Shown here: piece by piece, positions 8,382 through 12,073 of the stretch | Position numbering within the stretch: the stretch's first letter is position 1 | Layout: the number at the start of each line of letters is the position of its first letter | IMG/VR virus record: IMGVR_UViG_3300021365_000086 | Span: 1-26,677 of that record | Source of the DNA: a virus | Reading direction: 5' to 3' (one strand) | Length of the DNA: 26,677 bases | The notes under the pieces: model-generated | What the model was told of the DNA's origin: nothing | The model's input: only the letters and a program-made list of their open reading frames with translations | Databases searched by the model: none | Made by a program: the position numbers and the translations under genes

Positions 8382-8870
8382 ATGGCCGAACTTTTAGAAG
8401 CAAATAAAATATTTTACACACCATACGAACCGAAGTTAAAAAATCGTTTTATTATGGAGATTGATGGTATACCAGCCTTTACCATAAAAACAGCACAAAG
8501 ACCTCAAATAACTTTTGACGAGGTTGCTTTAGAACATATGAATGTAACAAGATATGTCAAGGGTAAAGGAAGATGGCAGACACTACAGATAACAATGTAT
8601 GATCCTATAGTACCATCAGCTGCTTCTGCTGTTATTGAGTGGGTTAGACTTCATCATGAATCAGCTACTGGTCGTGATGGGTATCAAGACTTTTACAAGA
8701 AAAATGTTACTTTCAATGTATTGGGACCTGTCGGTGATATTGTTGAAAAATGGACACTTTATGGAACTATGATTCAAGACGCTAGTTTCGGTGACTTGGA
8801 CTTTAGTGCTTCAGAACCTGTTGAGATAACACTAACATTAAGATACGACTACGCTATACTTGAATTCTAA
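8382..8870 (+). CDS. gp19: Tail tube protein, gp19 family
   Basis: This 162-residue protein forms the inner tail tube; T4 gp19 is 163 residues. Family features are visible: an N-terminal LKNRFIMEIDGIPAFTIKTA strand pair, the RYVKGKGRWQTLQITMYDPI segment, a helix containing VIEWVRLHHE, the WTLYGTMIQDASFGDLDFS strand and the SEPVEITLTLRYDYA C-terminal strand. These build the hexameric tube beta-barrel. TAGGAG lies ten bases upstream of the start. It is immediately downstream of the sheath gene, the usual pairing. Confidence 0.94.
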   Translation: MAELLEANKIFYTPYEPKLKNRFIMEIDGIPAFTIKTAQRPQITFDEVALEHMNVTRYVKGKGRWQTLQITMYDPIVPSAASAVIEWVRLHHESATGRDGYQDFYKKNVTFNVLGPVGDIVEKWTLYGTMIQDASFGDLDFSASEPVEITLTLRYDYAILEF

Positions 8871-8904: not shown

Positions 8905-9651
8905 ATGTCAGAACATAAGTTCCCTACGGAAGTTATTGATTTACCATCTGGTGGAAAGGTATATCCAAAAGACTCACCACTTACTGAAGGTAAAATTGAA
9001 TTAAAATATATGACCACAAAAGAAGAAGACATCCTTATGTCTGAAAACCTTATTAAGAAAGGTGTGGTTATTGATAAACTACTAGATAGTTTGATTGTTA
9101 CAGAGGGTGTAAATCAAGCCAGTTTGGTATTGGGTGATAAGAATGCTATATTAGTTGCTGCTCGTATTCTTGCTTATGGTCCTGAATATACTGCTGAGGT
9201 AACAAACCCAAATGATCCCGAACAGAAAGTAGAACACACATTTGACCTTACTACCTGTCCTTTTAAAACTTTACCCGATGGTGTTGATTATACAGATAAC
9301 TCATTTGATTACACTACCGATATAGGTAAGAATAAAATTAAGTTTAAGTTATTAACTGGTAAAGAAGAAGCTCTAATAGAAAAGGATTTAAAACAATCTG
9401 CTAAGTTTGGATACTCTAGTGATATTACAACTAGATTGAGATATACTATTACAGAGGTAGATGGTGATAATAAACCAGAAACAATAAATTCATTTTCACA
9501 GAATATGTTAGCTCGTGATTCTGTAGCATTGAGAAATTACATTCAAGAAATTTCTCCTGATATTGACTTGACATCAGAAATAGAAATAGGGGGTGAAACA
9601 GTTAGCGTGTCAATTCCGCTTACTGTTGGGTTTTTTTGGCCTAACTCCTAA
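8905..9651 (+). CDS. gp26: gp26-like baseplate hub assembly / tail chaperone protein
   Basis: This 248-residue protein matches the gp26 family of T4-like phages: LPSGGKVYPKDSPLTEGKIE, then LKYMTTKEEDILMSENLIKKGVVIDKLL near residues 33-60, a central domain, and a terminal IPLTVGFFWP. T4 gp26 is about 208 residues. In T4 it is described as a baseplate hub protein. Here it lies between the tube gene and the tape measure gene, the place where other contractile phages encode the tape-measure chaperone (P2 gpE). The codons for its GFFW ending contain a run of seven T's, and a second reading frame continues from exactly there, so it may exist both as this short form and as an extended frameshift product. 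AAGGAG precedes the start. Confidence 0.8.
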   Translation: MSEHKFPTEVIDLPSGGKVYPKDSPLTEGKIELKYMTTKEEDILMSENLIKKGVVIDKLLDSLIVTEGVNQASLVLGDKNAILVAARILAYGPEYTAEVTNPNDPEQKVEHTFDLTTCPFKTLPDGVDYTDNSFDYTTDIGKNKIKFKLLTGKEEALIEKDLKQSAKFGYSSDITTRLRYTITEVDGDNKPETINSFSQNMLARDSVALRNYIQEISPDIDLTSEIEIGGETVSVSIPLTVGFFWPNS

Positions 9652-9859
9652 AAATAAATTAGATATACACCAGTCTATTTTTTATTTTATCTACGGAACG
9701 CCAGGTTTTTCATTTAGTGATGTATATGATATGCCTGTTCATTTAAAGAACTTTTATATCCGAGAGTTTATGGATTTAAAAAAGAAAGAAAAAGAACAGA
9801 TGGATGATGCTCAACCAAAACAGCAATCAACAATTCCTCGTAGATTTTCTCCTAAATAA
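9593..9859 (+). CDS. gp51: gp51-like / chaperone extension, +1 frame to gp26
   Basis: The open frame has a possible GTG at 9593, but the protein-like part begins at about 9632 (FFGLTPKNKLDIHQ), then FYFIYGTPGFSFSDVYDMPV, then HLKNFYIREFMDLKKKEKEQ. The GFS-xx-DVY-MPVHLK-FYIRE pattern resembles the small gp51-type proteins that follow gp26 in T4-like phages. No proper ribosome binding site serves the GTG (the purine run touches it), and the first 12 codons look like noise from the overlapping gene. Expression as a 73-residue extension of gp26 by frameshifting is more likely, giving a product of about 317 residues. In lambda and P2, such extensions help assemble the tail around the tape measure protein. 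Confidence 0.7.
   Translation: MKQLACQFRLLLGFFGLTPKNKLDIHQSIFYFIYGTPGFSFSDVYDMPVHLKNFYIREFMDLKKKEKEQMDDAQPKQQSTIPRRFSPK
9631..9637 (+). promoter_or_regulatory. Candidate +1 (or -2) frameshift site, seven-T run
   Basis: In the gp26 frame the codons read GTT GGG TTT TTT TGG CCT AAC TCC TAA. A tRNA-Phe on the second TTT can re-pair one base forward on TTT (9635-9637), after which GGC CTA ACT continues in the frame of the gp51-like ORF. A two-base backward slip gives the same frame. A -1 slip meets TAA at 9642. Polymerase slippage on the seven T's is another route. Confidence 0.55.
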
Positions 9860-9870
9860 CTCTTTTCTTT

Positions 9871-9902: not shown

Positions 9903-10109
9903 ATGTCGTTTATGGATAGAGATAATATTATTGAAGAAGGTTTGTTCGACAAACTTAAAAACTATTTTAAAGATAGAAAAAAATATGATAAACTCACTAG
10001 GATTTTAATGAAAGATCCAAAATGGAAAAAGGCATATAAAGATGTTGAAAAATCTTTAAATAAAGCTAAAAAAACAGCTGATTTAATAGCAAAACAGGCT
10101 GGTAAATAA
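9903..10109 (+). CDS. Small basic protein preceding the tape measure gene
   Basis: I do not recognise this 68-residue protein for certain. It begins MSFMDRDNIIEEGLFDKLKN and is otherwise very lysine-rich and helical, with no cysteine. Short proteins with an N-terminal I-x-E-G-(L/F)-F-D-K motif and a basic helical tail occur, as I recall, in T4-like phages. The segment I-I-E-E-G contains the (I/L)-x-E pattern used by the gp21 prohead protease, so cleavage in the prohead is a possibility, but it sits among tail genes. The start has TAGGAG 11 bases upstream, and the stop overlaps the next start (TAATG). Confidence 0.7.
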   Translation: MSFMDRDNIIEEGLFDKLKNYFKDRKKYDKLTRILMKDPKWKKAYKDVEKSLNKAKKTADLIAKQAGK

Positions 10110-12073
10110 TGGCAAAAAATAAAGTAACAGAAGAACAGATTAATAGACTTGCAGAAATCAATCGTGAGCTAGATAAGAGAACCAATAGAACTAAGGAGTA
10201 TATAGCTCTTGAGAAAGAAGCACTATCGTTACAAAAAGCTGGAGTTAAACTTGAAAAAACGATGGAAGGAATCCGAAGTTCTGAAGAGGGTATACAAAGA
10301 AGAATAAACTCAGCGATAAAAGATAGAGAAGGTTCTATTACAAATATTTTAAAATCTGCTATAAAAATGGATTTATCATCGGCTTCGGAATTATTAAATA
10401 AAAGAAAAATTGCAAGTAAAGAAAAAGAACTGGCACAAGTTCAAGAAAGTATTGCAGACTCACTTCAGAAAGATGTGAAAGCTGGAAAAATTACAGTAAC
10501 AGATAGGGCAAAAATACTTAAAATTCAAGATGGTATTGCTTCTGGTAAAATAAAAGAAAACGATGTCGGAGGAAAATTACAAGGACTTAGTGCTAAGGGT
10601 TTAGCAAATTCAAAACTATATGGTAAAAACCTTAAAGAACAAGCAGGAACTCAAAAAAATATAGGTGGTCTAATAAGTAAAAGTGCGGGTGGATTGGCAA
10701 AATGGGGAGCCAGACTTGGTGCATTTGGTGCGATAGCTGTTGGAGTGTATAGCTTGATAGCTAAGTTTGCAGCTAAAATAGATGAGGTAGGAAAAACATT
10801 TGGATTCTTGACAAGCCAAAATGAACAATTTAGAGGAGATTTAATAGCAGCTGGTAATGAGGCTATTATGATTGGAAAGAATCTTTCAGATGTTCTTTCT
10901 GTAACGGCTCAACTTTCATCTGAGTTTGGTATAACATTAGACGAAGCTGCTGATTTATCAAGAACTATTTTAGACACAGCAGTAGCAACAGGTATATCCA
11001 ACGATGAAGCTACCAAGTTATTTGGTACTTTTATGCAAATTGGAAACTTGACTTCTAAACAAGCAGAAGATTTAATAGAAGGAACTGCTCAGTTAGCTGC
11101 TCAAAAAGGTGTTGCTCCAACTGCTGTATTGCGAGATATGGCTAGTTCAGCTGAAGAGATTGCTTCTTTTACAAAAGATGGTGGTAACAATATAGCCGAT
11201 GCTGCTGTTCAAGCTAGACAAATGGGATTATCCTTATCTACTACTGCTAAAATTGCTGAGGGGTTATTGGATTTTGAAAGTTCAATAGCTAATGAAGTAA
11301 CAGCTTCAGTAATGATTGGAAAACAATTAAACTTTCAAAAGGCAAGACAATTAGCACTTGAAGGTAATATTGCTGGAGCCACTAAAAACATAGTATCTCA
11401 AGTAGGGAGTGAAGCAGAGTTTAATAAATTAAATGTATTCCAAAGAAAATCACTTGCTAAATCAATCGGTGTTTCTGTTGTTGAGATGAGTAAACTAGTA
11501 AAGGGTTCTAAAGAATTAACCCTTAGTGGTGCTTTAGCTGGAAAGAGTTTTGGTGATTTGATAGGTCAAGATTCTCTAAGTACACTTACGAGTATTGTTA
11601 ATTCCATCAAATCACTTGGTGCTACTTTACTTGATACGTTTGGTGGTCCTTTAAATGCGTTATTAGAAAAATTTAGAGATAACTTTACTGGTCCTGAGGG
11701 TATTGAAAAGATGAGAGCTACTGTTAGGAGTATAGGTGAAACATTAATTACAGTTTTAAATGGAATTATATCTGTTATTAATAAATTTACATTTGACAAT
11801 ATTACCACGATAGATAAAAATAAAGTATTTGGAACACCAACAAACGACTTTCGTGGTGGTAGAGGTGGGATAACTACAATGGCAGGACCCGCTGGTGTGT
11901 TTAAATTAAATCCAATGGATTCTGTAATTGCTACAACCAATCCAATACCAACAAATGATTTTGGTCCTCAACCTGCTGGTTCAGTTGGTGGTGCACAAAA
12001 AATTGAAGTAACTGGAACACTAATAGGAACTAGAAGTTCACTAATGGCAGTTATTGAGCAACCATTGGGGTAA
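10109..12073 (+). CDS. gp29: Tail tape measure protein
   Basis: This 654-residue, strongly helical protein has the features of a tape measure protein that sets tail length and is released at DNA injection. Residues 1-180 are Lys/Glu-rich coiled coil; residues about 199-225 are a hydrophobic, glycine-containing segment (WGARLGAFGAIAVGVYSLIA) that could insert in a membrane. A long Ala/Ser/Thr-rich helical domain follows (AQLSSEFGITLDEAADLSRT, TAQLAAQKGVAPTAV), like the tape-measure core domain of many tailed phages. The C-terminal 90 residues are Gly/Pro-rich and end in a beta-like IEVTGTLIGTRSSL segment. At about 0.15 nm per residue in a helix, the length suggests a tail near 100 nm. T4 gp29 has 590 residues; homology to it specifically is not proved. 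Confidence 0.85.
   Translation: MAKNKVTEEQINRLAEINRELDKRTNRTKEYIALEKEALSLQKAGVKLEKTMEGIRSSEEGIQRRINSAIKDREGSITNILKSAIKMDLSSASELLNKRKIASKEKELAQVQESIADSLQKDVKAGKITVTDRAKILKIQDGIASGKIKENDVGGKLQGLSAKGLANSKLYGKNLKEQAGTQKNIGGLISKSAGGLAKWGARLGAFGAIAVGVYSLIAKFAAKIDEVGKTFGFLTSQNEQFRGDLIAAGNEAIMIGKNLSDVLSVTAQLSSEFGITLDEAADLSRTILDTAVATGISNDEATKLFGTFMQIGNLTSKQAEDLIEGTAQLAAQKGVAPTAVLRDMASSAEEIASFTKDGGNNIADAAVQARQMGLSLSTTAKIAEGLLDFESSIANEVTASVMIGKQLNFQKARQLALEGNIAGATKNIVSQVGSEAEFNKLNVFQRKSLAKSIGVSVVEMSKLVKGSKELTLSGALAGKSFGDLIGQDSLSTLTSIVNSIKSLGATLLDTFGGPLNALLEKFRDNFTGPEGIEKMRATVRSIGETLITVLNGIISVINKFTFDNITTIDKNKVFGTPTNDFRGGRGGITTMAGPAGVFKLNPMDSVIATTNPIPTNDFGPQPAGSVGGAQKIEVTGTLIGTRSSLMAVIEQPLG

Follow-up and report, generated by a model that had tools for sequence, protein, structure and literature searches.

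The window analyzed here, a stretch of 26,677 bases from an IMG/VR virus record, carries a gp26-type tail assembly chaperone gene that ends in a run of T's, and behind this run an overlapping frame reads on as protein. The question raised by this locus is whether ribosomal frameshifting joins the two frames into an extended chaperone and, if so, in which direction the ribosomes would slip. An earlier note on this DNA had proposed such an extended product. Comparative sequence evidence strongly supports that reading, and we predict, at a probability of roughly 0.87, that +1 programmed ribosomal frameshifting produces the long form of this T4-type tail assembly chaperone.

The chaperone locus and its two domains

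The window has several genes of T4-type myoviruses (gp23-type capsid, sheath, gp19-type tube, RecA-type recombinase, and DnaB-type helicase). The chaperone pair sits between the tail tube and tape measure genes in the window, as it does in phages immuto, Mel-JY01, SP-15, and HTVC008M, and a tape measure protein is annotated at the equivalent position in immuto, LIS04, and HTVC008M. The features of the locus are as follows.

8382..8870, + strand: tail tube protein (gp19 type), directly upstream of gp26 (PF06841, E = 4.4e-6, slightly below its cut-off)
8905..9651, + strand: TAC-N, gp26-type tail assembly chaperone, short form, 248 aa, 0 frame (PF12322, phrog_150, and AlphaFold model)
9586..9599, + strand: G-rich Shine-Dalgarno (SD)-like stretch 5' of the slip site (SD-like 4-mers enriched in relatives)
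9631..9642, + strand: predicted +1 slip site TTT TTT TGG CCT, in 0-frame codons, with the T7 run at 9631-9637 (conserved in the clade and relatives)
9638..9859, + strand: TAC-C, +1-frame C-terminal domain, 73 aa, GLTPKNKLDIHQ...RRFSPK plus stop (dN/dS, profile matches, and three-helix model)
9643..9651, + strand: 0-frame end of the short form, AAC TCC TAA (stop 1 to 4 codons past Trp-Pro or Tyr-Pro in 257/257 loci)
8905..9859, + strand: TAC-NC, predicted 317-residue frameshift fusion, long form (translation with a single shift at TGGC)
9903-10109: 68-aa lysine-rich ORF between the chaperone pair and the tape measure gene (no family assigned)
10109..12073, + strand: probable tape measure protein (phrog_33360 tape measure, E = 0.0011, and position)

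The 3' end of the gp26 ORF (8905-9651) reads GGG TTT TTT TGG CCT AAC TCC TAA, with seven T's at 9631-9637. The overlapping +1-frame ORF spans 9593-9859; past the slip site it resumes at GGC (9638-9640) and ends with the stop at 9857-9859, and reading TTT TTT (T) GGC gives a single 317-residue protein. The -1 frame past the T run stops at TAA (9642-9644). The sole upstream start in the +1 frame is a GTG at 9593, which lies within the G-rich stretch and has no spaced ribosome binding site. These coordinates and the translation agree with what the earlier note had described, namely, a gp26 gene ending in seven T's with a +1 overlap behind them, a -1 slip that meets TAA at 9642, a product of about 317 residues, and a +1 frame without a usable ribosome binding site.

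The two halves of the predicted fusion, TAC-N and TAC-C, were modeled separately. TAC-N matches PF12322 (E = 2.2e-8; 34.5 bits against a cut-off of 24.5) and the baseplate hub family phrog_150, and a fold search with its AlphaFold model (pLDDT 92.7) recovered phage baseplate hub and hub assembly proteins (e.g., that of SP-15; TM 0.83). The TAC-C model consists of three helices (pLDDT 81.7), and the fold search with it was uninformative. Sequence and fold searches of the PDB gave no significant match; the HK97 tail chaperone (2ob9), which appeared at rank 4 with E = 1.7, was not used.

Both T4 gp26 and T4 gp51 match PF12322, indicating that gp51 consists of a gp26-like part extended at the C terminus. 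Thus, the second frame of the window would correspond to the C-terminal domain of gp51 only, and the fusion would be the counterpart of the whole of gp51. Of the merger of gp26 with gp51 that had been suggested earlier, the gp26-type N-terminal part stands, and the reading as gp26 plus an entire gp51 is to be corrected accordingly. The profile of TAC-C matches the -1-frame domain of Kyanoviridae-type phages (probability 92), which in turn matches the C terminus of T4 gp51 (probability 93); the direct match of TAC-C to gp51 is insignificant (probability 0.3), and its link to gp51 is therefore an indirect one through the -1 group. Weak matches to phrog_634 were recovered with 13 of 80 members. 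TAC-N is present as a single copy in immuto, Mel-JY01, SP-15, RM378, and three large contigs, each with one TAC-C except RM378, whose C-terminal part is too divergent for the profile. With one copy per domain, immuto, Mel-JY01, and SP-15 have no T4-style duplicate.

Conservation of the junction in the clade and in wider relatives

Within the clade of the window, the exact string G-TTTTTTT-GGCCT is found at the end of gp26 in 80 of 81 copies (window included), and the single exception (L031) retains the T7 run but has an early stop codon 5' of the slip site. None of the 81 copies has six T's, and this degree of conservation goes well beyond chance. The codon before the run varies (GGG, GAG, GCG, or ACG), but its third base is always G, and both Phe codons are TTT in all 69 distinct genes of the clade, with TTC making up about 16% of Phe codons overall. 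GGCCT can be explained by dual coding (Trp-Pro in the 0 frame and Gly-Leu in the +1 frame), which leaves the T's and the preceding base as the informative positions. Judged by its substitutions, the +1 tail is evolving as a protein under purifying selection, with a dN/dS of 0.19 in the +1 frame and diversities of 0.129, 0.085, and 0.326 at codon positions 1, 2, and 3.

Nucleotide searches of the phage collection gave no match, and wider relatives were found by protein searches; a scan seeded with SP-15 recovered nothing but SP-15 itself. We gathered 257 loci with an automatically readable junction in four scans of viral contigs and a protein search against named phages. At 255 of these (227 distinct genes in about 131 clusters), the +1 frame directly past the slip site is open into the second domain, which has 65 to 114 residues where complete, the indel of L001 aside; none of the 257 loci has an in-frame fusion of the two domains. 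The commonest motif is TTT TTT TGG CCT (196 loci), followed by TTT CTT TGG CCT (35), TTC TTT TGG CCT (14), TTT CTA TGG CCT (4), CTT TTT TGG CCT (3), TTT TTT TAC CCT (2), and three others found once each. By eye, the same +1 layout was recognized in Flavobacterium phage immuto, Microcystis phage Mel-JY01, Rhodothermus phage RM378, Bacillus phage SP-15, Listeria phage LIS04, Streptococcus phage GXN1, and one huge metagenomic phage, as well as at 10 further loci on contigs from genome bins. In two loci without the +1 extension (L259 and L264) and in a huge phage (L088), a gene of its own, with an ATG start and in the -1 frame, encodes the second domain; thus, the fusion is not universal.

This comparison of relatives, in which the frame relation is conserved and the clade keeps the T run, also disposes of the alternative raised in the earlier note, that an assembly or sequencing error in the homopolymer conceals a plain in-frame fusion gene. 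Homopolymers are indeed prone to errors, and one copy (L001) has a one-base difference elsewhere in its tail. However, seven T's recur in 80 of 81 clade copies from independent assemblies, and the layout is kept at variant sites that are not homopolymers and in isolates such as RM378, SP-15, and immuto, leaving an error with a practically negligible probability.

Some individual records deserve comment. The one-base difference of L001 closes the +1 frame of its tail, and the early stop of L031 precedes the slip site; assembly errors may account for the two cases. In the public records of immuto, Mel-JY01, and SP-15 (L081 3348-3458, L082 3237-3473, and L084 3309-3428), the +1 domain appears as a separate, mostly truncated hypothetical protein. 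Two T4-type phage contigs (L364 and L372) come from bins labeled Woesearchaeota and Thaumarchaeota and are probably mis-binned.

Direction of the predicted shift and possible stimulators

Many clusters have a +1-frame stop just before the slip codons, and others have a 0-frame stop 9 nt after the start of TGG; between them, these stops leave about five codons within which a shift could take place. These stops bear on the possibility that gp26 and a small TAC-C are two separate proteins, the latter made by internal initiation or termination-reinitiation at a start of its own. Such a layout is present in the three relatives mentioned above (L259, L264, and L088); moreover, SD-like 4-mers cluster 25 to 48 nt 5' of the slip site in the relatives (378 observed versus about 204 expected from coding, an approximately 1.85-fold enrichment), and some relatives have a GTG or ATG near them. 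Yet 45 of 132 clusters are devoid of any ATG, GTG, or TTG in the +1 frame from the upstream stop to 12 codons into the domain, the +1 stop lies right before the slip site in many clusters, the conserved domain begins exactly at the GGC behind it, and the GTG at 9593 in the window has no spaced binding site. Separate synthesis of the two parts is hence very unlikely.

The sites of the +1 group lack the X XXY YYZ heptamer of -1 frameshifting. The base before T7 is T in 0 of 175 distinct genes, versus 38% T at the third positions of the same genes, which means that the T TTT TTT heptamer is avoided, and the -1 frame closes at once in most of the 257 loci. Thus, the earlier restriction to a +1 or a -2 shift is upheld as far as it discounts -1, and the variant sites allow the two remaining directions to be weighed. 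A -2 shift, as in phage Mu, would move the ribosome two bases back on the U run, so that UUU would be read twice and the product would carry the same +1-frame tail plus an additional Phe. Re-pairing of this kind is as good as that for +1 at the T7 site itself, and the -2 shift known in Mu does add one residue (PMC5009743). By inspection, +1 re-pairing (UUU-U, UUU-C, or CUU-U) is possible at nearly every variant site, whereas -2 re-pairing is not available at every member's site, failing at TTC TTT T, TTT CTT T, and TTT CTA T. There is accordingly no clean -2 re-pairing at TTC TTT TGG (14 loci), TTT CTT TGG (35), and TTT CTA TGG (4), nor at the distant sites TTC TTT CGT and AAC TTT CTA, all of which permit +1; at the distant site of LIS04 (TTT TTT AGT), +1 and -2 are not clearly told apart. 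Hence, the sites as a whole favor +1 over -2, and we consider a -2 shift unlikely.

The same variants speak to transcriptional slippage on T7, which would yield mRNAs of two kinds, some with six U's and others with seven. Most members do have a homopolymer, but seven T's are short for polymerase slippage, and in about 60 relatives the same +1 frame follows a site in which the longest T run is 3 to 6. The variant sites (TTT CTT, TTC TTT, and TTT CTA) rule out transcriptional slippage as a general mechanism, and we give it very little credence for the window.

Searches for elements that might stimulate a +1 ribosomal shift found no SD-like 4-mer close to the slip site in the window or its relatives and no stop codon in the A site, the A-site codon being TGG or TAC. 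The RNA 3' of the slip site has a fold that is weakly favorable relative to mononucleotide shuffles (mean z = -1.2), and an Rfam search gave one sub-threshold chance match on the opposite strand. The SD-like cluster 25 to 48 nt upstream was rejected as a +1 stimulator because this spacing is too large; to our knowledge, it is matched by no known spacing.

Proposed mechanism and comparison with known systems

On the preferred reading of +1 ribosomal frameshifting, one gene would give rise to two forms of a T4-type tail assembly chaperone. Most ribosomes would stop at 9651 and release the short form (gp26, TAC-N). In a minority, where the P site has tRNA-Phe on UUU and the A site (UGG) is slow, the tRNA would move one base forward on U7 and re-pair with UUU; such ribosomes would go on at GGC in the +1 frame and produce the 317-residue TAC-NC, the probable counterpart of T4 gp51. 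By analogy to lambda G/GT, many short and few long copies may coat the tape measure protein, with the C-terminal domain of the long copies recruiting tail tube subunits. The sequences themselves show the layout and its conservation, the purifying selection on the +1 frame, the narrow limits of the shift zone, and the family to which the N-terminal part belongs, whereas the ribosomal shift, its efficiency, and the chaperone role in these phages are all points that we infer. If this is correct, a large group of phages, both cultured and uncultured, probably relies on forward slippage to make the chaperone family of T4; among them are isolates deposited with the two frames left unjoined. A +1 site as simple as this, located on sense codons and independent of an SD, would be useful as a reporter, too.

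Frameshifted tail chaperones, and -1 shifts in T4-like phages, are already known; -1 poly-T signals in the TAC-N genes of T4-like phages are cited as such from Vladimirov et al. 2022 (PMC12846349). The conserved +1 version appears to be undescribed in the searchable literature, in which Vladimirov et al. 2022 is represented through the papers that cite it.

One comparison is with the gp26/short gp51 pairs of Kyanoviridae, Emdodecavirus, and Menderavirus, which are homologous to the pair in the window and likewise have a slippery T run ending gp26 and the second domain in another frame. In the Kyanoviridae-type phages, the related cyanophages of the ocean among them, however, T_TTT_TTY is present in 62 of 62 distinct loci and the second domain, usually of 57 to 66 residues, lies in the -1 frame; the +1 frame is closed within 14 codons, and an SD-like GAGGG lies about 10 nt 5' of the slip site, the classic -1 spacing. 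This layout is shared by HTVC008M, S-ShM2, MED4-213, phiN3, Marzo, and Vibrio phage D481, and Ackermannviridae and Vibrio phage K357 have the second domain in the -1 frame at other sites. The T7 run is thus never preceded by T in the +1 group and the run is always preceded by T in the -1 group, which provides a clean natural experiment on slip direction. It is conceivable, if rather doubtful, that one homologous pair has switched direction, being shifted -1 with the help of an SD in Kyanoviridae-type T4-like phages and +1 independently of an SD in a large group that mainly infects Bacteroidota, and that selection on the flanking base has been opposite in the two.

The host of the nearest isolate is Flavobacterium and several related contigs fall in Bacteroidota bins, making a host from Bacteroidota likely for the virus of the window. 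A switch of direction may reflect hosts whose ribosomes hide the anti-SD, and we put forward the link between SD use by the host and shift direction as a hypothesis. Ribosomes of Bacteroidia hide the anti-SD, yet prfB there still has a +1 site with an SD (PMC8710568). SP-15 and Mel-JY01, which have the +1 layout, infect hosts outside Bacteroidota.

Among other known systems, lambda G/GT resembles the window in having a short protein and a frameshift-extended form encoded between the tail tube and tape measure genes, but the lambda shift is -1, whereas here it is predicted to be +1 and concerns proteins of the T4 gp26 family (PF12322). The bacterial prfB shift (CUU UGA) is likewise a forward slip in the P site, and CUU U is used by 35 relatives; unlike these slip sites, prfB has a stop codon in the A site and an SD 3 nt upstream. 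Phage Mu also accesses the +1-relative frame in its tail chaperone gene, but by a -2 shift (PMC5009743), and the haloarchaeal virus HSTV-2 is similar by description, with a probable +1 shift in its tail chaperone (PMC5009743). T4 itself is listed as an exception to tail chaperone frameshifting (PMC5009743), its solution of a short gene plus a longer fusion gene being credited to Vladimirov, Gautam and Davidson 2022 (PMC10885494). TAC-N is a homolog of T4 gp26, and the predicted fusion would correspond to gp51 as a gp26-like part with a C-terminal domain; in contrast to the two separate genes of T4, the +1 genomes checked have one copy per part.
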